Assembly (NCBI GenBank): GCA_903904835.1
Contig: CAIVEI010000189.1
Coordinates: 1 to 64,000 of the forward strand
Direction of reading: 5' to 3'
Origin: an uncultured Schlesneria sp.
Lineage (GTDB): Bacteria; Planctomycetota; Planctomycetia; Planctomycetales; Planctomycetaceae
DNA length: 64,000 nt
Position 1 is the first letter of the stretch; each line of letters begins with the position of its first letter. Position numbers and translations under genes: made by a program. The notes beneath the pieces were generated by a model. That model worked only from the letters and a program-made list of their open reading frames with translations, did no database searches and had not been told where the DNA came from. This document shows, piece by piece, positions 11,672 through 37,036 of this stretch.

Positions 11672-13501
11672 TTAGTGGTGCTCTTCTGCAGCAACACGTT
11701 GTGCAAGTGGAACATATTCGGTTTGCATCAGGAAATCTTTGTCGCCACTGACCGGTGAGCCGTATTCATAAGGACCGTGGTAGACAACTGGCAGCACGTC
11801 GAAATTGCCATGTCCTGGTGGGGACGGAGCCGTCCATTCCAGACCGTTCGCTCCCCACGGATTGCGGCCACACTTAGGTCCGAAATACATGCTGTAGAAG
11901 AAGTTACCAAGTAACAGGAACTGAGCCATCCCCATCAAGAATGCCGATGCCGTCATGAACTGATTCAGTGGGAGCAGGTGTTCAAGATAAGGGAAGTGAT
12001 ACGGGTCGGCATACCGACGGGGCATACCAGCAATTCCAAGCATGTGCATCGGATAGAAGGTGCAGTTAAAGCCGATGAATGTCAGCACGAAGTGAATCTT
12101 GCCAACCGTTTCGTTCATCATTCGGCCATACATCTTGGGGAACCAGAACTGGATCGCTCCAAACACCCCGAACAACGTTGCACCGAAGATCACGTAGTGA
12201 AAGTGAGCCACAATAAAGTACGTGTCATGGATGTAGATATCGACTGGAACAGCAGCCATAAAAATGCCGCTCAATCCACCAATAATAAACATCGAAACGA
12301 ACGCGATGCAGTACAACATCACCGAGTTGAATTGCACGCGACCACCCCAGATCGTTCCAATCCAGTTGAAAGTCTTAATTGCAGACGGGAGGGCGATCAT
12401 GATCGTACTGACCATGAATGTCATTCCCAATGCCGGGTTCATACCGCTGATGAACATGTGGTGTCCCCACACGATGAATCCCAAACCTGCGATCGCCGCC
12501 ATCGAATAGACCATTGGCTTGTAGCCGAAAACAGGCTTTCGACACATGCATGCCAGCATGTCAGAGACCATTCCCATCGCGGGAAGCAACATGATGTAAA
12601 CTGCGGGGTGAGAGTAGAACCAGAAAAGGTGCTGCCACAACAGCGTCTGGCCCCCACCGACAGTAGGTGCAGCATTGTTGACGACGATGCCGGAGGGCAC
12701 GAAGAAGCAGGTTCCCAGCATTCGGTCAGAAACCATCATGAAACCTGCCGCTGTCAGCACGGGAAGTGCAAACGCCTGCAGAATCGCAGTGATAAACATC
12801 GACCAGATCGTGAGTGGCATTCGGAACAGCGTCATACCTGGTGCACGCATATTGATAATGGTGGTCATGTAATTGACCGAACCCATCATGGATGAAACAC
12901 CGACAAACGTCAGACCTAACAGCCACAGGGTCTGAGCGTCACCTGAACCGGGAGCCGCCTCGCGCAAGAGTGACAGAAGCGGGTAAGACGTCCACCCCGC
13001 CGCTGGTCCCCCACCGTACATGAAGAAGCTGGCACCGAACAAGAAAATTGCCGGCCACATGAACCAGTAACTGAGCATGTTCAGCGTCGGAAACGCCATG
13101 TCATCCGCTCCGATTTGCAGCGGAATGAGAAAGTTACCGAAAGCACCTGCCAGCACGGGGATGATCACCAGGAAGATCATCACGGTCGCGTGCATTGTGA
13201 ACAACATCGTATAAGCGTCAGGAGAAATCTGGCCTCCGTCTGCTCCGAACACCATGTCGCCGAAAATTGGCATGCGTTCCCAAGGGCGGGCCAACTGCCA
13301 ACGGACTGCTAACGCAAGTGCACCACCCACCATCATCATAAACAGCGTTGTAATCAGAAATTGCTTTCCGATCATCTTGTGGTCGGTCGAAAAAACATAT
13401 TGCGATATAAAGCTCTGCTTGTGAGCGTGCGCGTGATCATGTCCATGCCCACCATGGTCGGCGTGATCCGCATGATCGATTGTTGGATTGAGAGTGCTCA
13501 T
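11672..13501 (-). CDS. coxA: Cytochrome c oxidase subunit I, A2 type
   Basis: The 609-residue catalytic subunit with about 12 helices. Low-spin heme ligand H104 (FTMHATV) pairs with H435, and H433 binds the high-spin heme (AHFHYVIFG). The CuB ligands are H298, H347 and H348, with cross-link tyrosine Y302. The helix VI motif is YSHPAVY in place of GHPEVY, the mark of the A2 subfamily, where tyrosine-serine replaces the D-channel glutamate. The N-terminus (residues 9-27) is rich in His-Asp and His-Gly, a possible metal-binding tail. It is encoded after coxB and before ctaA. Confidence 0.97.
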   Translation of the reverse strand: MSTLNPTIDHADHADHGGHGHDHAHAHKQSFISQYVFSTDHKMIGKQFLITTLFMMMVGGALALAVRWQLARPWERMPIFGDMVFGADGGQISPDAYTMLFTMHATVMIFLVIIPVLAGAFGNFLIPLQIGADDMAFPTLNMLSYWFMWPAIFLFGASFFMYGGGPAAGWTSYPLLSLLREAAPGSGDAQTLWLLGLTFVGVSSMMGSVNYMTTIINMRAPGMTLFRMPLTIWSMFITAILQAFALPVLTAAGFMMVSDRMLGTCFFVPSGIVVNNAAPTVGGGQTLLWQHLFWFYSHPAVYIMLLPAMGMVSDMLACMCRKPVFGYKPMVYSMAAIAGLGFIVWGHHMFISGMNPALGMTFMVSTIMIALPSAIKTFNWIGTIWGGRVQFNSVMLYCIAFVSMFIIGGLSGIFMAAVPVDIYIHDTYFIVAHFHYVIFGATLFGVFGAIQFWFPKMYGRMMNETVGKIHFVLTFIGFNCTFYPMHMLGIAGMPRRYADPYHFPYLEHLLPLNQFMTASAFLMGMAQFLLLGNFFYSMYFGPKCGRNPWGANGLEWTAPSPPGHGNFDVLPVVYHGPYEYGSPVSGDKDFLMQTEYVPLAQRVAAEEHH

Positions 13502-13561: not shown

Positions 13562-14374
13562 CTATTCCGCTGGCTTCCGATAACCATCATCAAATTGTTC
13601 CGCGGAGGCTTTGTCTTTCCACGCTTCAAAGTCGTCAGCCGATTGTGCAACCAGCATGGCTTTCATTTTATAATGCCCCCATCCACACAGCTCGGCACAA
13701 AGCATTTCGTATTTGCCGGGCATTGTTGCATCAAACCACACGGGGATCATCTTTCCCGGTACCGCATCCTGTTTAACGCGAAGCATCGGAACGAAGAACG
13801 CATGTTGAACGTCGTCCGTTCGTAGCGTGATCGAGACCAGACCACCCGTCGGAACATGCAGTTCATTCACGGAGTAGATGTCATCTGGTTGTGGAGTCGG
13901 TTTCAGTGGCTTGCCGTTGGCTGGGTAGCGAATCCGCCATTCGAATTGCCGAGCCGTCACCTCAGCAACGACAGTGATTACCTTGGGAGAACCATCCTTC
14001 TCTTTCGCAAAACCCTTCATCCGATATTCAGCCCAGACGTCCAACTGATAAAGGGCGATGAACAGCAGCACGGCCGAAGGTACGATAGTCCAGATCACTT
14101 CAAGGCTGTGACTGCCGTGAGAAAACCAGACCTTCTCGTCTGACTTGATCGACGCACCACGCCACAGAGCGTAGCCCAGAGCCGCACTTGTTCCGACAAA
14201 AGTCACTGAAACAATGACCAGAATCAGATAGAACAGGTCATCGATCTTTCCACCGAGCGTCGAATACGCATTTCCATCTCCAGGAAACCACCAATGCATT
14301 GCAGGGGAAATCCAGGAAACAATGAAAATGATCACTGAAGTCAGGGTGAAAAATACTGCCCAAAACTTGCCCAC
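13562..14374 (-). CDS. coxB: Cytochrome c oxidase subunit II
   Basis: A 270-residue protein carrying the CuA electron entry site. The ligands are all present: H191 (DVQHAFF), C226, E228, C230, H234 and M237 in CAELCGWGHYKM. There are hydrophobic N-terminal helices at about 5-22, 46-68 and 88-112, one more than the usual hairpin; the first may be an uncleaved signal anchor. No cytochrome c domain is fused, unlike caa3 oxidases, so electrons must come from a separate donor such as the diheme lipoprotein encoded just upstream. Confidence 0.95.
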   Translation of the reverse strand: MGKFWAVFFTLTSVIIFIVSWISPAMHWWFPGDGNAYSTLGGKIDDLFYLILVIVSVTFVGTSAALGYALWRGASIKSDEKVWFSHGSHSLEVIWTIVPSAVLLFIALYQLDVWAEYRMKGFAKEKDGSPKVITVVAEVTARQFEWRIRYPANGKPLKPTPQPDDIYSVNELHVPTGGLVSITLRTDDVQHAFFVPMLRVKQDAVPGKMIPVWFDATMPGKYEMLCAELCGWGHYKMKAMLVAQSADDFEAWKDKASAEQFDDGYRKPAE

Positions 14375-14542: not shown

Positions 14543-16024
14543 TCAATTTGCCGGTTTTTCTTCGTTATTCGCCACGACTTCCGCAGGATGCTTCACAGCA
14601 GTCGGCTGTTTAGGCTGATACGGAAGACTCATTACATAATTGACGATATCCCAGACTTGCGGCTCTTTCAGCACGGTGTCGCCGAAGGCTGGCATTGGTG
14701 TACCTTTGATGCCGGCGCGAATCCGACGGAACAGGTCAAGTGGTCGACGACCACCCCGATACTGCCCACTCGTCAGATTTCGTGGCTTCAGCGGATTGCC
14801 CCACTCATCGTGCAGCCCGCGATTTGGATACTTCACACTGGTGCCAGGTTTGTCCCAGAAATCCTCGGTCGCCGCACCATCACCTCGACCCGTCGGGCCA
14901 TGGCAAGTGTAACATTTGGTAGTGTTGGACATATACAGGAGCCGGCCACGCTCGCGAGATTCCAGCGTATCTTCGACTCGTTGAGATGTCGGAATAATCA
15001 GAACTTCGGGAGTCTCTGCCTGGGTCCACGCCGATGCCAACAAATTCGCAGTTTCTTCAACCGCTCCATCAAGTTCTTTGTCATCGACATATTTTTTGAA
15101 TGCTGTTCCAGCGGCTTTTATTGCCTTGGACAAATTCAAAGGCTTTTCCGCTTCTTCCTTGTTCTTCTTTTTCTCAAGGTATGATTTTTCTGCTTTATCG
15201 GTCGAATCCTTAATCGCGGTCTGTGAATAATCATTGGTCAGTTCTTCGACAAATCGCTTTTCAAACTCGCCCCGTATCGCCAGCCATCGAACATACTCAA
15301 CGACAGCGGTTGTTTCTCGTTCTCCTAACAACAGGAACGATGGCATATACGTGCCAGGGATACCGTATTGGATGATCCGGTGCAAATCGTCACGAGTGGC
15401 CTTCTCTTGAGATTGTGTCGAGGTGAACTTGAACTTCCCATTTCGATAGTCACGAGGACGTGGATTCAAGAATTTGCCGGTTGGTCCATTACCGTCGCCC
15501 GTCACTCCGTGACAATGCATGCAATTCTTCATGTAAACCACGCGACCAAGCTGCATGTCTTCGCCAAAACCAACAACGAAACGGTCCCCCACAGACGGCG
15601 TACTCGAACCGCTCGCGAGTTGGAGTGTCTTCGTCTCAACGTTAAAGCCTTTTACATTTGTTTCTGCCGATTTCCCTCCGGCTTGTGATCCCGAAACCCA
15701 AAGTAACGAGGCATTCTTCGAAATCTTACTGGAGTCACCCTCAAGTGCCACGGTGATAGAACCGGAAGGCCCCTCAGTTGAAGCGACAGTCCCTTTCACT
15801 CCGCCATAGTTGATGGGAAAGCGTTCCCAGGCAACCAGAGCCTCTGGCGTCCCGAAGTCGTCAGTCAATGTCTTGGTGACTGCCTTATTGGCCTCGGGAA
15901 TCAGGTCATCCGTCGTTGGACGATACTTGAAGACGGCCTGCGGCCCATTGCCACAACCCAAATTCATAACCGTTAGACCTAGCGTGACCAGCACGGAAAA
16001 ACCCGTACGTGAGCATCGAGGCAT
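14543..16024 (-). CDS. Diheme c-type cytochrome lipoprotein
   Basis: About 493 residues from the ATG at 16024, which gives a lipoprotein signal ending LGC. Other in-frame starts are an ATG at 16051 and a GTG at 16096; no strong ribosome site decides. Two heme sites, CMHCH and CYTCH, each have a downstream Met-Pro (TYMPSF, TPMPAF) as likely axial ligand. Before the first heme lies a compact beta-rich region of about 100 residues that I do not recognise. A lysine/glutamate helical linker joins the two cytochrome domains. Its place between the bc-type genes and coxB makes it a good candidate for carrying electrons to CuA. Confidence 0.85.
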   Translation of the reverse strand: MPRCSRTGFSVLVTLGLTVMNLGCGNGPQAVFKYRPTTDDLIPEANKAVTKTLTDDFGTPEALVAWERFPINYGGVKGTVASTEGPSGSITVALEGDSSKISKNASLLWVSGSQAGGKSAETNVKGFNVETKTLQLASGSSTPSVGDRFVVGFGEDMQLGRVVYMKNCMHCHGVTGDGNGPTGKFLNPRPRDYRNGKFKFTSTQSQEKATRDDLHRIIQYGIPGTYMPSFLLLGERETTAVVEYVRWLAIRGEFEKRFVEELTNDYSQTAIKDSTDKAEKSYLEKKKNKEEAEKPLNLSKAIKAAGTAFKKYVDDKELDGAVEETANLLASAWTQAETPEVLIIPTSQRVEDTLESRERGRLLYMSNTTKCYTCHGPTGRGDGAATEDFWDKPGTSVKYPNRGLHDEWGNPLKPRNLTSGQYRGGRRPLDLFRRIRAGIKGTPMPAFGDTVLKEPQVWDIVNYVMSLPYQPKQPTAVKHPAEVVANNEEKPAN

Positions 16025-16112
16025 CGATATCGTAAAATTGTCGCGAAGCATTATCTGCACCGTCAGTGCTAAAACGTCGAACCCAGATTTATACACAACC
16101 CAATTGTTGGGC

Positions 16113-17009
16113 TCATTTTCCCAGTTGGGATGGCGTTACCTTAATCGTCAATTCGTTGTCACCCGGCTTGATCGTCACAATGAGCCCCTTTTCGAGCACA
16201 CCCGCTGCTTCATGCCAGACCTTGAATTCGTGCTTACCAGACGGCAGGTCCTTAAGTTCAAACTTACCATCTTCACCGCTGACGACCGCAAATGGATGAT
16301 CGATTGGCAAATGATAGGCATTCATCCAAGGGTGGATGTCGCAACCAACTTTAATCGGTTCTTGCTCAGCTTGCTTATACACCATCGGTACCCCGACAGC
16401 ATTATTCTCACCGACGACGGAATTGAACTGCACCGTCTTCTTGCCATACGTATGCGTGTTATGGGCGACCGCATCGCTGTTCAGAATCTTGACCGTTTGT
16501 CCGACTCGAGCAATCATCGCGTGAGGCTTGAAGACGCATGCCTTCTGATCGAAGATCAGGCTTTCACCTGGAACTGGACTTGAGGCTTTCGGAGCTTTTT
16601 TCAGATAGATAAAGACGTTGGCCAAACCACCATCTTTTACCAGAATTGTCTCGTTCGGCGCTTCAACGGCAGCGCAGACGTCCTTGTCCTTGACATCGCT
16701 TCCCTTAAGGTACAACGGGGGAAGTGGTGTGAAAGGTCCTGCAAATTCCACTTTTCCACGAAGTGTTCCCACGCCTTCAGTGGATGCCGTTTCAGAAGTT
16801 TCGGCAACTCCCGAACCCTTCGTCTCGGTCGAATCCCCACCAACCGTACTTGGCTTATATTTCACAGTTGGCTTCAGATTCGCGCCGTTGACCAGTTCAC
16901 CGCAACCCGACGTCAGCAATACCGTAGCTGATAAGAAAAGCGCAACTGTTACACGCGCCACGCGATGTTTTATCACAGTCATTGAATTTCCAGAAATTGG
17001 CATCACCAT
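16113..17009 (-). CDS. Cupredoxin-like lipoprotein
   Basis: A 298-residue lipoprotein (lipobox LLTSGC, C36). Residues 80-240 resemble MauL/plastocyanin-like cupredoxins. Type-1 copper ligands look present: H183 (VAHNTH), C223, H226 and M229 (VGCDIHPWM). A carboxypeptidase-regulatory-like beta domain follows (EDGKFELKDLPSGKHEFKVW). The start ATG overlaps the octaheme stop as TAATG, and a GGGAGGTGG lies just upstream as ribosome site. It may be an electron carrier between the octaheme cytochrome and the oxidase; copper binding is inferred from residues only. Confidence 0.8.
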   Translation of the reverse strand: MVMPISGNSMTVIKHRVARVTVALFLSATVLLTSGCGELVNGANLKPTVKYKPSTVGGDSTETKGSGVAETSETASTEGVGTLRGKVEFAGPFTPLPPLYLKGSDVKDKDVCAAVEAPNETILVKDGGLANVFIYLKKAPKASSPVPGESLIFDQKACVFKPHAMIARVGQTVKILNSDAVAHNTHTYGKKTVQFNSVVGENNAVGVPMVYKQAEQEPIKVGCDIHPWMNAYHLPIDHPFAVVSGEDGKFELKDLPSGKHEFKVWHEAAGVLEKGLIVTIKPGDNELTIKVTPSQLGK

Positions 17010-20000
17010 TATTGACCACCTCCCGCCGCAGGAGCGGATGGGGCAGGTTGTGAAACTGCCTTGCCTTCGCGTTCCAACAATTTGTGATAGTTCATTAATG
17101 CATCTCGCAATGAAATCGTCTGCTTCAGTCCATCATCACCAAACTGTTCAGGATATCGAGGCTGTGCTCCAGGGCCCTGCGGAGGCAACGGTACAGGCAT
17201 TGACGTGTATGGTGTCAACCAGTTTGGTTTGTACAACCACAAGAGTGTCCAATCAGGGCGGAGCCGATCTGCCGCCAAATCGAGGTTTGGCCCGCGAATG
17301 TCTTTTGCTGGATCAGTGATTTTCACCTGATTTCCACCGACCGAGTGACACTTGATACACAAAGGAACATTCAGCATCTTCCAGGATTCTGAAAGATAAT
17401 CATTCGTCTTCGCTGGAAATGCGGCATGGAATTCGGCATCGCGCTTTTGAAGATAACCAGGTTCCCGCTCCGCGATCAGTTGATACGGATATGGCGTACC
17501 ATCAACTGCGGCGAAATAGTTGGCTAACGACTGAGCCTCATCGTCACTCATGTTGAACCGAGGCATGCGTAGTACCGTCGTGTGGCGAATCTTCCCTGGA
17601 TTCTTCAGGAAGTTAAACAGCCAAGGAGTCTGAACTTTAATACCCTCTTTGTAAAGCGGAGGAGGTGCCATTTGCCAAGCCAAGGACCGTTCTTTCGCCT
17701 GTTGAGTATTGACCAAACGATCGACCAGCCATTCGGCATATTTGCCACCACGAGCAGGCAACAAAGCATCCAAATTCGCTGCTGGGAAAATGAATTTGTA
17801 AGTAGGCAGGAAATCCTTGCCAGCCAGTTTCAGCGTTTCCCAAAGCTCAACGACATACTCTTGATCTTCAGGCGAATCTTCTGGGTTCGGTGCGCTGGTC
17901 ACCAATCCATGCAGTTCCAGCATTGATAATGTCTTCTTTTCCCCATCAACCGTCACCGTTTTCTTGGCACCCGTCAGACCGTTTCGAGGAGGTCGCAATT
18001 CCATCAGCAGTTTTACCGCTTCAGGGTATTCGCCCGATGTGTCGGATGCTGCCAAACCGTCAACATCAGCAGCGTAACGAATCTTCGGCATTTCGAGGAT
18101 ATGGCAACCCGAACAGTTGTACTGTTCGATCAACTGTTCGCCACGAATCTTGGCCCCGGCAGGTCCTGTGGGGTTGTACAAGTATTCTGTCGCAGGCGGT
18201 TCGGCGATTAAGCCAACGACGAACGTTGCGATTGCGTCGATTTCGCTTTCGGACAGCGGGAACTTCGGCATACGCAAGCGATCGTCATAAGCCGATTTTG
18301 TTTCGACAGTCTTATAATCGTAACTTCGCGGCTGCCGGAGCTTCTGCCACAGGAATCCAGGTCGACCATGATGCGTGAGGCTTTCATAGTAGAAAGCCGC
18401 AGATAATTCGCGATCCTTGTCTTCTTCGTGCTTAAACTCATTCCGTTTTGCCTGACCAATCCCCTCTTCAACACGAGCCTGCATCGATCCGTCAGGAACT
18501 ATCCGCAACGTCTCGTTCTTACCGTTTCTTAAAACGGTGACCGTTGCCTCTTCTCCTACAACAGTTCGGCTGAGACGATCCTGTAAATCAGCAGCAGTCT
18601 TAATATCGACTCCGTTGAAATTCACGATAATGTCATCCAGTTGCAAAGAGTCTCCACCAGGACCATGACCTGGCTTAATGTTTGAAACTCGCGTACCGGA
18701 TACCGAATCGAGCTTAAGTCGTGCTGCCTGCTTGGCATCAATCGCCTCGAACTCGACCCCCAAGCTTGGATTTCCATGGTGATGCAGGTACTCATGAATA
18801 TGCTCGAAGGCCAACCGTGAGCGATCCTTCTTGCCCCAATCCTGCAATGCGGTTCCGACAGGCCGACCATTTTCGAACTTCGGTATTTCATGGCAGCCAT
18901 AGCAGCCGTACTTGGTAATCGTCTTACGACCGACATACGTCAGCTTACGTTGCTTCCATTCTTCGGCAGAGAACTCGCCGTCTTTCGCAAGTTCGACTTC
19001 ATCTGTCTTGATGTTCTCAGCCGGGATCGGATATTTGCCTGTCTCGAGCAATTTCGTGATTTGGTCTGAGGTCAAAATCTTCGTCAACATGGACCGAATC
19101 AGCGAATCCAACGCGGAATCATCAACAACAGGAGCTTCATAAGTCGCCGTGGGCTTGAAACTCGCGGGATCACCATCGAGCTTCAGCAAGAACGCAGCAA
19201 TGTCGGCCGCTGGATCAATCTTTCCGTCAGCCGTTGTTTCGGCATCAAGATAAAGATTCGGCATCTTGGTACGGGCATGATATCGTTCAGGCTCACGAAT
19301 CCATGTATATAGCCAATCGAATCCCGCCTTGCCCCCCTTGAGCTTCCCATGAATCTTTGACAATTCAGGACCGAACGTCGCGTTCACGCCTGGAACATCT
19401 TCGTGCGAGTGGCAAACAACGCAACCTCGGGTTGCAAACAGGTTTTGACCCCGGGCAGCATCCGGCTTGTATCCTTCGGCGGGTGACAATGTGTCGAATG
19501 TTGCTGAGTTTGCCTGTAAATAGTGTGCCACGGCAGCGATCTCGATTGGCGTATACTTTTCCGCCATCGCGTCACGCTGGTTATCCAAGCCGAAGAATTG
19601 TGGCATCTTGGTGGTCGGACGGAACCGCTTAGGTTCAGCCGTCCAATGCGCCACAAAGCCGACGTCTGATTTGGCGGCCGAGTACTTTAACGAAGGGCCA
19701 ACCTTTCGCATCTTGCCTGCCACTTGTAATGGATCTTTGGCGATCTTATCGGCCTCTTCAGGAGTCGATGGCTCAAGGCGCAGATCCGGTCCGACGATCT
19801 TCGTTCCGTCATAGCCAGAAATTTCGTGGCAGCCAAAACAGCCGTACGTCTTAACAAGCTGATAGCCTTTGAACACCTTGGGCGCGGTTGCTCCAAATTT
19901 TTCGTTGACGCCTAGTTCGGTGACGTTTACGTGACACTTGATACAGCCCGACTCTTCGAACCGCTGGGGATACATCGGGTGTTCCCAGAAATGATTGTCG

Positions 20001-21088
20001 AACCACTTATGCTCATGTTCCCACTTCGCCATTTCTGCCGGATCGTTCGGCGTGTGCGAGGCATTCGTAAACGACGTTCCTGAACCCTGACCTTCGTGAC
20101 ATACCGTACAACCAAACTTCGGCAACGGATGAGGACTGGCGGAAGTGAGATAAAGGTCCAAGCGGGGATGAGATGCATACGGATGAGGATAATTTCCGTC
20201 CTTCACATCACCGTGTGGATATGCAGGTGACGTACCAACATTGACAGAATCAATCATCGCATGACATGTTCGGCAACGGTCGAATCTGGCAACCTTCGAC
20301 ATGCCACCAAGATCGATTTCGAGCTTCGGCATCCAGTCCTGGGTGATTCGTTCACGGCCATTAAAGCCATCAACAATTGGCAATTGCATCAACTGCAACT
20401 TGAGGCTCTTCAATGTTCCATCAAGACCCGTCGACTTGCCTTCCCAGTTGGTCTTTTGAGGCGCAATCTTGTTAAGCGAAGCATCGATCAACGTGATTTG
20501 TGCTTCGGCAGCTTTCTTTGCCGCCTCGGCGGTATCGCGTTCTGCAGTCAACTTTGAAACAGCCGCTTTGGCCTCATTTGATTCGTAGGATAGCTCAACG
20601 AACTGAGCCTCTTTTTTCTGAACATCAGCTTCGATGGTCGCGAATTCCGATGCCAGTTTGGTCAACTGCGGGCCGGGCAAATTGTTACTGACCGCAAGAT
20701 TATAATTAGCGCGAACAACGTCACGTTCAGCACGGCGCAATTTCAATGCGCGCATGTGATCGTCCAGCTTGTCCTTCACGGATTTTGCAGCCGTTTGAAG
20801 GCCGATGAGTTCCTTCTCGTGTGATTTGACCGTCTCCTTGGCCGAATCGACTTTTTGAGTTAAGGCGCGAATGTTTTCTTGGAACGCAGGATCGTTCTTA
20901 ATGTCTTTTTCACGGGACTCATCCCGTTTTGCCTGATAGGCAAACGCCTGGCGCTGGAAGGTTCGCCATTCGTCGTTGTAATCGGCCCACATCATCCACA
21001 AAGTGACGAAAAACAGGAGCGCCGCACTGGCGAAGAACACCCGATGCATCGTCTTGGGACTGCGAAGATAATCGTCGGTCGCCGGCAT
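17009..21088 (-). CDS. Octaheme cytochrome c with coiled coil and inserted PDZ domain
   Basis: A 1359-residue membrane-anchored cytochrome. A helix at 17-34 is followed by a long coiled coil (about 50-210). Eight CxxCH sites follow, with His at 276, 331, 386, 421, 560, 733, 996 and 1248. Five Met-Pro motifs (M495, M609, M940, M1175, M1297) can serve as axial ligands of the last five hemes; the first three may be His/His. A PDZ-like domain (about 779-868) lies between heme site 733 and M940, inside one heme domain. The C-terminus is Pro/Ala/Gly rich. It is encoded right after the cytochrome b halves, so it most likely replaces cytochrome c1/f in the quinol-oxidising complex. Confidence 0.93.
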   Translation of the reverse strand: MPATDDYLRSPKTMHRVFFASAALLFFVTLWMMWADYNDEWRTFQRQAFAYQAKRDESREKDIKNDPAFQENIRALTQKVDSAKETVKSHEKELIGLQTAAKSVKDKLDDHMRALKLRRAERDVVRANYNLAVSNNLPGPQLTKLASEFATIEADVQKKEAQFVELSYESNEAKAAVSKLTAERDTAEAAKKAAEAQITLIDASLNKIAPQKTNWEGKSTGLDGTLKSLKLQLMQLPIVDGFNGRERITQDWMPKLEIDLGGMSKVARFDRCRTCHAMIDSVNVGTSPAYPHGDVKDGNYPHPYASHPRLDLYLTSASPHPLPKFGCTVCHEGQGSGTSFTNASHTPNDPAEMAKWEHEHKWFDNHFWEHPMYPQRFEESGCIKCHVNVTELGVNEKFGATAPKVFKGYQLVKTYGCFGCHEISGYDGTKIVGPDLRLEPSTPEEADKIAKDPLQVAGKMRKVGPSLKYSAAKSDVGFVAHWTAEPKRFRPTTKMPQFFGLDNQRDAMAEKYTPIEIAAVAHYLQANSATFDTLSPAEGYKPDAARGQNLFATRGCVVCHSHEDVPGVNATFGPELSKIHGKLKGGKAGFDWLYTWIREPERYHARTKMPNLYLDAETTADGKIDPAADIAAFLLKLDGDPASFKPTATYEAPVVDDSALDSLIRSMLTKILTSDQITKLLETGKYPIPAENIKTDEVELAKDGEFSAEEWKQRKLTYVGRKTITKYGCYGCHEIPKFENGRPVGTALQDWGKKDRSRLAFEHIHEYLHHHGNPSLGVEFEAIDAKQAARLKLDSVSGTRVSNIKPGHGPGGDSLQLDDIIVNFNGVDIKTAADLQDRLSRTVVGEEATVTVLRNGKNETLRIVPDGSMQARVEEGIGQAKRNEFKHEEDKDRELSAAFYYESLTHHGRPGFLWQKLRQPRSYDYKTVETKSAYDDRLRMPKFPLSESEIDAIATFVVGLIAEPPATEYLYNPTGPAGAKIRGEQLIEQYNCSGCHILEMPKIRYAADVDGLAASDTSGEYPEAVKLLMELRPPRNGLTGAKKTVTVDGEKKTLSMLELHGLVTSAPNPEDSPEDQEYVVELWETLKLAGKDFLPTYKFIFPAANLDALLPARGGKYAEWLVDRLVNTQQAKERSLAWQMAPPPLYKEGIKVQTPWLFNFLKNPGKIRHTTVLRMPRFNMSDDEAQSLANYFAAVDGTPYPYQLIAEREPGYLQKRDAEFHAAFPAKTNDYLSESWKMLNVPLCIKCHSVGGNQVKITDPAKDIRGPNLDLAADRLRPDWTLLWLYKPNWLTPYTSMPVPLPPQGPGAQPRYPEQFGDDGLKQTISLRDALMNYHKLLEREGKAVSQPAPSAPAAGGGQ

Positions 21089-21183: not shown

Positions 21184-22569
21184 TCAGATATTGAAGAACC
21201 ACTCAGGTATGGCCACGATGTATTTTAGATTCACCGCCCATCGCAGCACCATCTTAATTGGCAATGACATCATCATCAGCATGAGATTTGCCAAGACCAT
21301 ATATCGTAAAAATCCCATTTTTACATAAAACTTCTTGAAGACCGTCGCTGCCATGATGTTCGGAAGAACGACGAGATAAAACGCAACTCCAACCAATCCC
21401 AACCACTCCCTCAAGAGGATAATGGGAGCCTGCTGGGCAAATGTGGCACCAGGAGGAACCACAGGAAGCGGACGGCCAAGACCTTTGATCCAGAACAACT
21501 CTGAAAGGTTGATATTGTTCAGCAATTCAAGCTTGTGGACGTCCCAGAACTCATAAGGGCTGAAGAAGTTCCAGTTCGGGCCTCTCAGAAATGTGCCGAG
21601 AACAATCATTGCCACCCACAGTGGCAGGAACCCAAACAGGAACGTTGAAACTGCGAATTTCCGTTCGTTAAATGTGTAATAACCATTACCCGCTTTGTTG
21701 AAATCGATGTAGGGAACAGCCATCAGGCCTACCAGGATCACGCTCGGCAATACCACCCCGGCCATCCAAGGGTCGAAGTAAACCAGCATTTCCTGAAGAC
21801 CGAGGAAGTACCAGGGGGCCTTCGAAGGATTGGGGGTCTTGGCAGCAGACGCAGGTTCTTCAAGTGGTGCTTGCAGAACGATACCCCAAGCGATCAGCAC
21901 AGCAGTTACCAGTACCATGCAGATTAGTTCCGAATAGACCAAGTCGGGCCAGGTCAAAACTTTTTCATTGTTTTCCTGCTCGAAAAGGGGCCGCCCAGCA
22001 GCCTTACGCTCGTCGTTGTCGACAGATTTTTTGAAGTACAACCAAGTAAAAAAACCGACGATGTAAAGCATCGCGACAATTGGCACGTTGTCTGGTTTAC
22101 CGACAATCTGGCGGAAATCGTAATCTGTGACACTCAATGCGAGAAACAAAATTGACAAATTCAACAAGATCCATCCGGCAGTCGGTGTCGTCCACCACTT
22201 CCGCAAGACGATCATCAGGACATAGATCGTGGTCGATCCGATGAAAAACGCGACAGGGTTGGATGCGCGATTGATCGGCTCTTTGAGAAACTCGGGCATC
22301 TGTAACGAAAACTGTTGAGGGTTCTTCCAGCCGGTCAAGTGAGTGATGGCAATCATCAGCAGCATGCCTGCATAGACGGCCCAGAACGCCGCGACAGGGA
22401 TCTGTTCGCCTTTGCCGAGAATCCCGCCAAGGCTCAGCCGACAGTTGCCATCAAGGGCATAACTGCGCCGTGTCCAGTAGGCGTTCATCAGGAACATCAA
22501 CAGGTAAACCCACCCCAGTCCGTAGATGACCGAGGAAGTGAGATCAGGATTATGTGTTAAGTGAGTCAT
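21184..22569 (-). CDS. Cytochrome b C-terminal half (subunit IV-like), N-terminally extended
   Basis: A 461-residue membrane protein. From about residue 205 it matches the C-terminal half of cytochrome b: the Qo motif region reads APWYFLGLQE (251-260), followed by three helices. Residues 1-200 add about five membrane helices absent from the roughly 160-residue chloroplast subunit IV. The glutamate of the usual PEWY motif is alanine here; E260 is nearby. It lies between the cytochrome b N-terminal half (96-bp gap) and the octaheme gene (95-bp gap), and should form the Qo site with the Rieske protein. Confidence 0.9.
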   Translation of the reverse strand: MTHLTHNPDLTSSVIYGLGWVYLLMFLMNAYWTRRSYALDGNCRLSLGGILGKGEQIPVAAFWAVYAGMLLMIAITHLTGWKNPQQFSLQMPEFLKEPINRASNPVAFFIGSTTIYVLMIVLRKWWTTPTAGWILLNLSILFLALSVTDYDFRQIVGKPDNVPIVAMLYIVGFFTWLYFKKSVDNDERKAAGRPLFEQENNEKVLTWPDLVYSELICMVLVTAVLIAWGIVLQAPLEEPASAAKTPNPSKAPWYFLGLQEMLVYFDPWMAGVVLPSVILVGLMAVPYIDFNKAGNGYYTFNERKFAVSTFLFGFLPLWVAMIVLGTFLRGPNWNFFSPYEFWDVHKLELLNNINLSELFWIKGLGRPLPVVPPGATFAQQAPIILLREWLGLVGVAFYLVVLPNIMAATVFKKFYVKMGFLRYMVLANLMLMMMSLPIKMVLRWAVNLKYIVAIPEWFFNI

Positions 22570-22665: not shown

Positions 22666-23439
22666 TTACAACGGCTGGCTGATACCACCATCCTTACGAA
22701 CTCGCCAGAAGTGAATCGCGATCAACAGCGACACCACCAGGGGAATGGCGACGCAGTGAAGAATGTAGAATCGGTTCAACGTTGCCTCACCGACGAATCG
22801 GCTTCCTAACAATAGAAAGCGAGCGTCGCTTCCATTGGTGATGAGGTCATAACCCCCAATGTTCAACAACTGGGCACCGGGGCCTTCGTAACCGAGGAAC
22901 GGAGTCGCACGAGCCATGTTGGAACCGACGGTGATCGCCCAGATTGCCAGTTGATCCCACGGCAACAAATATCCTGTAAATGACAACAGCAGCGTCAATA
23001 CCAGTAGAAGAACGCCAATGACCCAGTTGAATTCTCGTGGCGGCTTATAGCTACCAGTGAGGAATACGCGATACATGTGCAGCCAGACGGTGATCACCAT
23101 GGCGTGCGCCGACCAGCGATGCACTTCTCTCATGATTCCCAGCGTTGTTACGTCACGTAACGCCAGAATATCGTTAAACGCAAATTCCAGCGTGGGGCGG
23201 TAATAGAACATCAGCAATACGCCGGTGATCGTTTCCACCAGAAACAGGAAGAACGTGATCCCACCCATACACCATGTGTAAGAGAGTGCAATTCCCTGCT
23301 GCTTGATCGATACTGGATGCAAGTGCAGAAAGAAATTGGTGAGCATCACCACAACGCGGTTGCGGCGATCAACCGGTGCAGGATGCCGAAAGATGCTCTT
23401 CCAGATCTGCGAACCGCGAATGTAGTCACCAACAGACAT
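22666..23439 (-). CDS. Cytochrome b N-terminal half (b6-like)
   Basis: The 257-residue protein binds two b hemes through H107/H121 (VHRWSAH…WLHMYRV) and H228/H243 (ILHCVAI…IHFWRV), with 13 and 14 residues between ligands. The 14-residue second spacing is the b6/Gram-positive pattern. C57 in WCMGGIT matches the cysteine that binds heme ci covalently in b6f complexes. Qo-side elements include GYLLPWDQLA. The separate C-terminal half is encoded next. Together they form the quinol-oxidising membrane core. Confidence 0.95.
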   Translation of the reverse strand: MSVGDYIRGSQIWKSIFRHPAPVDRRNRVVVMLTNFFLHLHPVSIKQQGIALSYTWCMGGITFFLFLVETITGVLLMFYYRPTLEFAFNDILALRDVTTLGIMREVHRWSAHAMVITVWLHMYRVFLTGSYKPPREFNWVIGVLLLVLTLLLSFTGYLLPWDQLAIWAITVGSNMARATPFLGYEGPGAQLLNIGGYDLITNGSDARFLLLGSRFVGEATLNRFYILHCVAIPLVVSLLIAIHFWRVRKDGGISQPL

Positions 23440-23504: not shown

Positions 23505-24608
23505 TTAGACAACCTCAACGTAGGAAGTTGTATCAGTCCACTGGCCCATTTCTTCCTGGAATTTCACGCTTTTGTTGACTTCCAGCATTCCGTCTTCAGC
23601 AATTCGCAGCCCCATCCGCTCAAGCGGCCGCGGAGCTGGACCTTCGAAGTTAATGCCCGTCATATAAAATCCAGAGCCGTGACACGGGCACTTGAATTTC
23701 TGCTCACCATCCAGCCAGTTCGGGGTGCAACCCAAGTGAGTACAAACAGACGCCAGTGCGAAAATCATGTTGCGACCTTCGTATTGGTCTGTATGCACGA
23801 CCCAGATCCCGAACTGGTCTTTCCACTTGTTCGAAACGGTATTCAACGGATAGTCCGACAGTGGACCGACCTTGAATTTTGAAGGAGGTTCGACCAGCAC
23901 ATTGGGAAACATGAAGCGAGCAATCCCAAGCGTGCCGATTCCACCGACGCTGGCGAGAGCTGCCCAAGCCGCCATAAATGGAGACAACAGGGCACCCCAA
24001 GCGAGCGCACCGACAGCAATCAAGAGGCTATTTCCAAAGAGATAGCCGAGCACAAAGCAAATCGCACTAATGCAGGCTACCGTGGCAAAACTTGCCATAC
24101 CACGACGAACGGCAGCCGGCTTAGCTTTTCCAGCAGCAACGGGTTTCGCCGGCATCGGTGGAGCTGCCACCGGAGCGGTTGTTTTTGCGACTGCAGCCAC
24201 AGGAGCTGCAGCAGGGCCACCAGCCGCCTTGGCCTCACGCATTTTCTGCAGCATTTCCTGAGGCGAAAGCTTCGGTCCCGCGGCTGCCGCCGTAGACGGT
24301 GCTGGTGTGCCGGCAGGAGCAGTACTCGCCGCCGTAACAGCAGCAGGCGTTGACGCGACCGGCGCTGCGGCTGGTTTCGCACCACCTCCACGAATAGCAG
24401 CCATGATGTCTTTGGTTGACGTCGGCTTAGGGCCGGGTGCAGCGGCAGGCGCTGGAGCGGCCGCAGCGATCGGTGCTGATTCAGGAGCCGCAACAGGCGC
24501 TGGTGTTTCCGGCGGGGAAACAGGTGTCTCAGGTGCTGCAGCGGCGGCTGCTTTTTGAGCACGGATTTTTGCGAGGATATCGGCAGTGGAAGTTTTTTTC
24601 TCTTCCAT
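23505..24608 (-). CDS. Rieske 2Fe-2S protein with long Ala/Pro N-terminal extension
   Basis: First gene of the respiratory operon, 367 residues. The Rieske fold is at about 265-350. Cluster ligands are C289, H291, C307 and H310 (CTHLGC, CPCHGSGF), with C294 and C309 for the disulfide. Two hydrophobic segments (about 171-190 and 194-230) precede it. The first 165 residues are low-complexity Ala/Pro/Gly containing three copies of a short helical motif: STADILAKIR (7-16), STKDIMAAIR (64-73) and SPQEMLQKMR (115-124). Such an extension is unusual for a Rieske subunit and would lie in the cytoplasm if the first helix is an anchor. Confidence 0.93.
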   Translation of the reverse strand: MEEKKTSTADILAKIRAQKAAAAAAPETPVSPPETPAPVAAPESAPIAAAAPAPAAAPGPKPTSTKDIMAAIRGGGAKPAAAPVASTPAAVTAASTAPAGTPAPSTAAAAGPKLSPQEMLQKMREAKAAGGPAAAPVAAVAKTTAPVAAPPMPAKPVAAGKAKPAAVRRGMASFATVACISAICFVLGYLFGNSLLIAVGALAWGALLSPFMAAWAALASVGGIGTLGIARFMFPNVLVEPPSKFKVGPLSDYPLNTVSNKWKDQFGIWVVHTDQYEGRNMIFALASVCTHLGCTPNWLDGEQKFKCPCHGSGFYMTGINFEGPAPRPLERMGLRIAEDGMLEVNKSVKFQEEMGQWTDTTSYVEVV

Positions 24609-35431: not shown

Positions 35432-36907
35432 TCACAAGAATTGAACTCGTCGGTCTAGTTGGATTCGCCAATATTCCAGAATCGCGTCGACGAATGGGAC
35501 CCGGGATTTGGCGGGGTTGATCATTCCCGCAGCTTTCTTCTCTGGCACTTTTTTCTCGGGATCAGTCGCTCGTTCAACAGGCTGCTCAACAATCGGCTTT
35601 CCATCTGCCAATTGCTTCTTGATTCCTTCGAGAGCTGCGTTCAGTTGTCTATCAACGAACGTCGATTGCGGAACAGTTCCGTCCTTGCGAATCACTTCGC
35701 GGTCACGACGAGAATTATCCAGGTCACGCAGTTCCTCGTTTGACATCTTCTGCTCGTAGCCGGGGTCAGGCATGACGCCCCATTCGTCTTTTTCTGTTGC
35801 TTTGGGGAACCGGTGAATGTTCTTACCGCTTGGACGGTGATAGCTGGCGGTCGTCAGTTTCAGAGCACTTTTGCCACCTTCCAGTTCGACGACGTTTTGC
35901 ACGCTGCCTTTACCCCAGGTTCTCTCGCCGACGATAATTGCTCGTTTGTAGTCCTGAAGGCAAGCACTGACGATTTCGGCGGCCGACGCGCTGTATCGAT
36001 TGACGAGCACCGCCATCGGAAAACCACTGAAAGTTCCTGCTCTCTTGGCTTCGACGAAATGCTCTTCTGTGTTGCGTCCCTTGGTGCTGACGATGACGCC
36101 ATTTGAAATGAAGAAATCGGCGATGGCGGTCGCGGCGGTCAACAGGCCCCCGGGATTGAATCGCATATCCAGCACCAGCGCCCGCATTCCCTCTTTTTGC
36201 AGCTTGGTTAATGCATCGTGCAATTCTTCTGCGCTGTTTCGTCCGAAGCTGGTCAGGCGGATGTAGCCGATCTTTTCCTTCTCGTCGAGCATGAATGACC
36301 ATTCACCTTTCGCATCGTAATGGTCCCCCAGAACGGTTGGGGTTTTGATCACGTCTCGCGTGACTTCGATGGTCACTGGGGTCTCAGAACCTTCATGCTG
36401 CAACTTGATTTTGACCATGGCGCCTGGCTTGCCACGCATCAGCGATATGGCCGAATCCATTTCGCGACCTTCCTGGAAGTCGGCGGTCAGTTTGTCATCG
36501 ATTTCCAAAATGCGATCGCCTGCCAGAACACCAGCCTTGTAAGCGGGAGTCCCTGGCAGAGGGGTCATCACCATTAGCTGGCGAGTCCGTGGATCAATGG
36601 TGACCTGGATGCCGATCCCACCGAATTCCTGCTCGACATGTTCGGTGAAACTTCGCAGTTCCTGCTTGTCGATGTAGGACGAATAAGGATCGAGCTTCAG
36701 CAGCATGCCTCGCATCGCAGCTTCAATCAATTCCCGCTTGTCGACCTGAGTGACGTAATTACGGTCGATCTGCTCGAAGGTATCTACGAAGACTTTCATC
36801 AATTCGTAGTATTCATCTTCGGTTGCGGCACGAGCCGAATTCACAGACAACCCGCTGCCAACCACGATCAACAGAACCGCCAGCCCAAATCGCCGCCACT
36901 GCATCAT
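35432..36907 (-). CDS. S41 family C-terminal processing peptidase
   Basis: About 491 residues from the ATG at 36907, which has GAAGGAAA just upstream; a longer frame from 36964 adds a charged stretch before the signal peptide. The signal ends near SARA. A PDZ domain (GGIGIQVTID … GDRILEIDDKL) is followed by the S41 fold, with nucleophile serine in NRYSASAAEI and the general-base lysine in WGKGSVQ. It is a periplasmic tail-specific protease. The C-terminal 60 residues are charged and basic. Confidence 0.93.
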   Translation of the reverse strand: MMQWRRFGLAVLLIVVGSGLSVNSARAATEDEYYELMKVFVDTFEQIDRNYVTQVDKRELIEAAMRGMLLKLDPYSSYIDKQELRSFTEHVEQEFGGIGIQVTIDPRTRQLMVMTPLPGTPAYKAGVLAGDRILEIDDKLTADFQEGREMDSAISLMRGKPGAMVKIKLQHEGSETPVTIEVTRDVIKTPTVLGDHYDAKGEWSFMLDEKEKIGYIRLTSFGRNSAEELHDALTKLQKEGMRALVLDMRFNPGGLLTAATAIADFFISNGVIVSTKGRNTEEHFVEAKRAGTFSGFPMAVLVNRYSASAAEIVSACLQDYKRAIIVGERTWGKGSVQNVVELEGGKSALKLTTASYHRPSGKNIHRFPKATEKDEWGVMPDPGYEQKMSNEELRDLDNSRRDREVIRKDGTVPQSTFVDRQLNAALEGIKKQLADGKPIVEQPVERATDPEKKVPEKKAAGMINPAKSRVPFVDAILEYWRIQLDRRVQFL

Positions 36908-37036
36908 CTCGTTTCCTTCGCTCAGTTCGATCTGTCGTTCCCTCGATTTGCTCGCATCCGGCATCGCCGGATTATGAATCTTCTATGAACGAAGAATACG
37001 TCTTTCACACCGTAGCGGCAAGACTTGCATTGCAAA

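Follow-up and report, generated by a model that had tools for sequence, protein, structure and literature searches.

An HtrA-type PDZ domain between the CxxCH motif and the likely axial methionine of heme 6 in a planctomycete octaheme cytochrome c

The octaheme cytochrome gene and its operon

The DNA studied here, a stretch of 64,000 nucleotides hereafter called the window, carries on its minus strand a cluster of genes encoding a Rieske protein, a split cytochrome b and a multiheme cytochrome c (Table 1). In the direction of transcription, the Rieske, cytochrome b and subunit-IV-like genes lie upstream of the octaheme gene, and the genes of a probable lipoprotein, a diheme cytochrome c and cytochrome oxidase subunits lie downstream. 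This gene set is found again in relatives, the Rieske, cytochrome b and multiheme c genes standing together in related loci, and the named relatives belong to Schlesneria and to other Planctomycetaceae. The octaheme gene, present in a single copy in its genome, starts with ATG and contains no internal stop codon. Judging from the sequences, its product probably provides the multiheme c subunit in a Rieske/cytochrome b - cytochrome oxidase system of planctomycetes, that is, part of a quinol-oxidising complex. Outside the operon, the window also encodes a peptidase of the C-terminal-processing type, S41-like by eye, which has its own PDZ domain (35432-36964, minus strand; PF13180 at 36362-36622).

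A Rieske/cytochrome b complex with a large multiheme c subunit, Kustd1485, is known from the anammox bacterium Kuenenia (complex Kustd1480-1485; PMC12954380). The two systems have in common a Rieske protein, a b6-like cytochrome b with a subunit-IV-like protein, a membrane helix and long helices. In both of them a hexa- or octaheme cytochrome c replaces cytochrome f, a likeness of composition. However, an NAD(P) oxidoreductase belongs to the anammox complex (PMC12954380), whereas in the window oxidase genes follow instead. The text on the Kustd1480-1485 complex makes no mention of a PDZ domain (PMC12954380).

Table 1. Features of the octaheme cytochrome c locus. Positions are those of the window; residues are numbered in the encoded protein.
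Feature	Positions	Strand	Residues or remarks	Basis
Cytochrome oxidase subunit I	11672..13501	minus	conserved neighbour in related loci	ORF sequence, not profile
Cytochrome oxidase subunit II	13562..14374	minus		Pfam
Diheme cytochrome c	14543..16096	minus		Pfam
Probable lipoprotein	16113..17009	minus	downstream neighbour of the octaheme gene	ORF; no Pfam family above cut-off
Octaheme cytochrome c	17009..21088	minus	1359 aa, membrane-anchored	ORF and eight CxxCH
N-terminal membrane segment	20984..21040	minus	17-35; only one in the octaheme protein	hydropathy
Heme 1, CRTCH	20261..20275	minus	272-276	His invariant, 110/110
Heme 2, CTVCH	20096..20110	minus	327-331	His invariant, 110/110
Heme 3, CIKCH	19931..19945	minus	382-386	His invariant, 110/110
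Heme 4, CFGCH	19826..19840	minus	417-421; proposed axial M495 at 19604-19606	
Heme 5, CVVCH	19409..19423	minus	556-560; proposed axial M609 at 19262-19264	
Heme 6, CYGCH	18890..18904	minus	729-733	
PDZ domain	18500..18769	minus	774-863 (insert about 773-864)	Pfam, NCBIfam, PDB sequence, AlphaFold2, Foldseek
M940, proposed axial ligand of heme 6	18269..18271	minus		invariant, 110/110
Heme 7, CSGCH	18101..18115	minus	992-996; proposed axial M1175 at 17564-17566	
Heme 8, CIKCH	17345..17359	minus	1244-1248; proposed axial M1297 at 17198-17200	
Cytochrome b C-terminal / subunit-IV-like protein	21184..22569	minus		Pfam
Cytochrome b, N-terminal half	22666..23439	minus		Pfam
Rieske protein	23505..24608	minus	Pro/Ala-rich N-terminal tail; membrane segments from residue 174	Pfam

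Heme ligands and the PDZ domain of the heme-6 loop

The first-pass annotation of this DNA had described an octaheme protein with eight CxxCH sites and five Met-Pro ligand motifs. This description is supported by comparison with homologues. Overlapping sets of genomes were searched (170 of the same family, 392 of the phylum and 298 of the class), and the loci read from them yielded 110 non-redundant octaheme proteins. The histidine of each CxxCH is kept in 110/110 of these. Exactly five methionines are invariant (M495, M609, M940, M1175 and M1297). Each of hemes 4 to 8 is followed by one of them, and these proposed ligands are among the eight Met-Pro dipeptides of the protein. Three histidines outside the CxxCH motifs, His 307, 320 and 345, are also invariant and suit bis-His ligation of hemes 1 to 3, which we infer. 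The five methionines, the three additional histidines and the eight CxxCH histidines amount to sixteen ligands for eight hemes. The protein would combine a membrane anchor and a helical stretch with eight hemes, of which three are probably bis-His and five probably His/Met ligated.

Heme 6 has two sequence features of a class-I-like cytochrome c domain, namely a CxxCH motif and a downstream methionine, M940. In distant homologues without PDZ, the heme-6 segment is compact (127-150 residues) and retains both the CxxCH and the MP motif. M940 is therefore very likely the ligand of heme 6, an assignment based on conservation and spacing rather than on structure because the heme domains were poorly modelled (no heme, 14-row alignment). 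The best Pfam Cytochrom_C match in the protein is to heme 5 (544-620), and profile alignment of hemes 4, 5 and 6 did not securely reach the Met half.

An HtrA/DegP-type PDZ domain lies between the CxxCH of heme 6 and the likely axial methionine of that heme. Pfam PDZ_2 matches the domain with an E-value of 5.2e-10 (39.9 bits, cut-off 27), and the best partial match in NCBIfam is to the PDZ region of Do proteases (774-879, E 4.6e-14). A PDB sequence search with the PDZ retrieves PDZ1 of DegQ and DegP (E 8e-6 for DegQ PDZ1). In an AlphaFold2 model of residues 650-990, the PDZ block has pLDDT values of about 65-93 and the heme halves are poor; a model of residues 237-1359 had a mean pLDDT of 49 and was left out of the analysis. 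Foldseek searches with the PDZ model return HtrA-family PDZs with a probability of 1.0 (TM 0.79 for 9pno_B, 0.77-0.79 for isolated domains). Thus, the PDZ fold that had been located at residues 779-868 is supported by Pfam, AlphaFold2 and Foldseek, with boundaries that should rather read about 774-864. Its position between heme 6 and M940, also noted at first pass, agrees with the conservation seen in the 110 homologues. The carboxylate-binding loop (hydrophobic-Gly-hydrophobic) is present as L776 G777 V778, and Gly777 is kept in 17/17 sequences. The domain resembles PDZ1 of HtrA, DegP and DegQ in sequence and fold, but the octaheme protein has no protease domain: Pfam finds cytochrome and PDZ families only, and the HtrA/Do model reaches 52 bits against a cut-off of 416.

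In relatives devoid of PDZ, the heme-6 loop reads HHHGEPDGSST..RV, whereas in the window it reads HHHGNP-[PDZ]-PDGSMQARV. Both flanks of the loop are kept around the PDZ, which takes over part of the short HHHGEPDGSST stretch. Retention of both flanks indicates that about 91 residues were placed into a pre-existing heme-6 loop. Within the c-type fold, the PDZ would be located in a loop past the first half of the domain, ahead of the helix leading to Met940. An assembly artefact is ruled out, since the same arrangement occurs elsewhere in the genus and in a sister genus, including in a single-contig genome (G516).

Proteins containing both a PDZ and CxxCH c-type heme domains have been described in magnetotactic bacteria, where they are represented by MamE and MamP (PMC3971196). 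In these proteins, however, PDZ and heme domains (magnetochromes) are arranged in tandem, whereas in the window protein the PDZ is inside a respiratory heme domain. The MamE family model scores 14.7 bits on the octaheme protein, below its cut-off of 800. Full-text literature searches, which covered few subscription papers, turned up no PDZ in a cytochrome of this type.

Distribution, constraint and candidate role of the PDZ

PDZ domains are found at three places in the homologues: the heme-6 loop (site A), the linker between hemes 5 and 6 (site B) and the segment between hemes 1 and 2 (site C). The search of planctomycete genomes that had been proposed as a check of the arrangement recovers a site-A PDZ in the own genus and in one sister genus, which form one clade in the octaheme core tree (support 100). 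Many members of the same family have an octaheme protein without PDZ. Site B is occupied in some genera and site C in many other families of the class. When nine site-B and site-C inserts were submitted to Pfam, each of them hit a PDZ family; seven scored above the curated cut-offs, and L052 and L092 just below. A PDZ scan of the octaheme homologues found none with two PDZs. The octaheme subunit is host to a PDZ module that recurs and is apparently movable, and the presence of PDZs at two further places in relatives, not visible at first pass, is the more informative observation.

Other insertions are found in the same protein. The heme 6-7 spacing of genus g7 and of genome G405 equals that of the window, which made them candidate PDZ carriers; their inserts prove not to be PDZs. 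In g7, a sister genus (L070, L071, L080), the heme-6 loop contains an unrelated insert of ~95 residues showing no profile similarity to PDZ. G405 (L069 / L127) has a different, probably beta-rich, insert in this loop, and the other sampled members of its genus are without it. Large lineage-specific inserts also occur in the heme 5-6 and 7-8 segments of L051, L102, L103 and L132. The octaheme core seems to accommodate many insertions. In four genera of the family represented by near-complete genomes (g3, g5, g9 and g14), weak matches only were obtained and the octaheme subunit is seemingly absent.

Among close relatives, dN/dS of the site-A PDZ is about 0.03-0.15, with dS near saturation, and these estimates indicate that the domain is under purifying selection. 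Mean pairwise identity within the clade is 0.44 for the PDZ versus 0.84-0.89 for the heme-6 flanks. Positions of the PDZ groove vary across the clade and the loop glycine is invariant.

Sites A and B are both beside heme 6 in sequence, so that a docking role near heme 6 is the best guess. As a hypothesis, the PDZ would act as a docking domain tethered next to heme 6, holding a partner polypeptide by its terminus or by an internal strand. The partner held in this way would let the complex assemble or electrons pass efficiently. Candidate ligands were sought among the C-terminal ends of eight operon proteins, namely the Rieske protein, the two cytochrome b parts, the octaheme and diheme cytochromes, the lipoprotein and subunits I and II of the oxidase. 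The likeness of these ends to PDZ ligands is no higher in PDZ-bearing than in PDZ-less genomes. Of the earlier idea that the PDZ could dock another subunit of a quinol-oxidising complex, the membership in such a complex is retained as probable. Docking of a terminus stands as a hypothesis, for which the operon C-termini, which do not track the PDZ, give no positive evidence. The C-terminus of the Rieske protein (...SYVEVV) is on the PDZ's side of the membrane and is PDZ-ligand-like; such tails are equally common in PDZ-free genomes. The Pro/Ala-rich end of the Rieske protein, which had been singled out as a possible partner, is its N-terminus and precedes all of its membrane segments, which start at about residue 174. 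In the usual topology of Rieske proteins, the N-terminus is cytoplasmic. Since the PDZ is periplasmic, this tail is unlikely to be its ligand.

The main rival to a docking role is that a common periplasmic domain landed in an insertion-tolerant surface loop, folds there and persists although no specific ligand binds it. The unrelated inserts of about 95 residues that g7 and G405 have in the same loop argue for this, as do large inserts lacking a Pfam match at several other octaheme sites. PDZs are also readily available (roughly 25-35 PDZ matches per genome), and the groove positions vary. However, recurrence of PDZs at three places of the octaheme subunit, their resemblance to HtrA PDZs, and purifying selection on a site-A PDZ that keeps its carboxylate loop argue against a mere tolerated insert, which we consider rather unlikely.

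Origin of the site-A PDZ and significance

Phylogenetic trees of the PDZs were built from about 95 columns. In a careful tree, site A forms a group with L103, L104 and L117, whose PDZs are at site B (UFBoot 98, SH-aLRT 81). In two further PDZ sets, which used other backgrounds and alignment settings, the neighbour of site A is site B alone in 158/200 and 200/200 bootstraps, respectively. In the first of these sets, site B mixed with background adjoins site A in 41/200 bootstraps. All site-A and all site-B PDZs form one group in 1-5% of bootstraps in two sets and in 94% in a third. In the core tree, L104 and L117 fall in a larger clade around Schlesneria (support 93). Under parsimony, the site-B pattern requires four changes and may reflect one old gain followed by several losses. 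Because site A adjoins site-B PDZs rather than other sampled PDZs, it is probable that the site-A PDZ moved within the gene from the heme 5/6 linker. Such a change of place would go back to the ancestor that Schlesneria shares with its sister genus. Exchange between related genes, instead of relocation within one gene, is possible.

Alternatively, the site-A PDZ may have been copied from an HtrA/Do protease gene independently of the site-B PDZs. Its nearest named family is indeed DegP/HtrA PDZ1, and in one tree an HtrA-like background clade sits between site-B groups. Yet site B, alone or with background, adjoins site A in nearly all bootstraps, against 1/400 for background alone in the two further sets, and such a capture appears unlikely. 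The site-C PDZ looks independent, being separate in the PDZ trees. No bootstrap of the careful tree recovers a single origin of the PDZs of sites A, B and C, and a small tree does not reject it (p 0.54).

Taken jointly, the data are best explained by an HtrA-type PDZ that resides in the heme-6 domain, was relocated from site B and would serve as a docking module; we give this reading a probability of about 0.5. Points against it are operon C-termini that fail to follow the PDZ, the low identity and variable groove of the PDZ within its clade, the many PDZ-less family members, the unrelated inserts of other lineages in this loop, and the small number of columns behind PDZ trees in which all site-A and site-B PDZs seldom group together in two of three sets. 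More tentatively, it can be proposed that the PDZ moved from the linker into the heme-6 fold and was kept there for docking, a separate site-C PDZ having been recruited in sister families. Rieske/b complexes are typically dimeric, and no external ligand was found among the operon C-termini, two points that count for self-association. By analogy with the dimer contacts of the MamP PDZ (PMC3971196), the PDZs might then pair mutually or cap heme 6 in the same chain, which we regard as improbable.

In planctomycete Rieske/b complexes, multiheme c subunits stand in for cytochrome c1/f. In the protein described here, a folded domain interrupts a c-type heme domain, with the CxxCH on one side and the likely axial methionine on the other, and many insert-free homologues are at hand for comparison with the split heme-6 domain. 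A PDZ recurring at different addresses, with no more than one in any sampled protein, offers a concrete experimental handle, either by removal of the domain or by fishing for its ligand.
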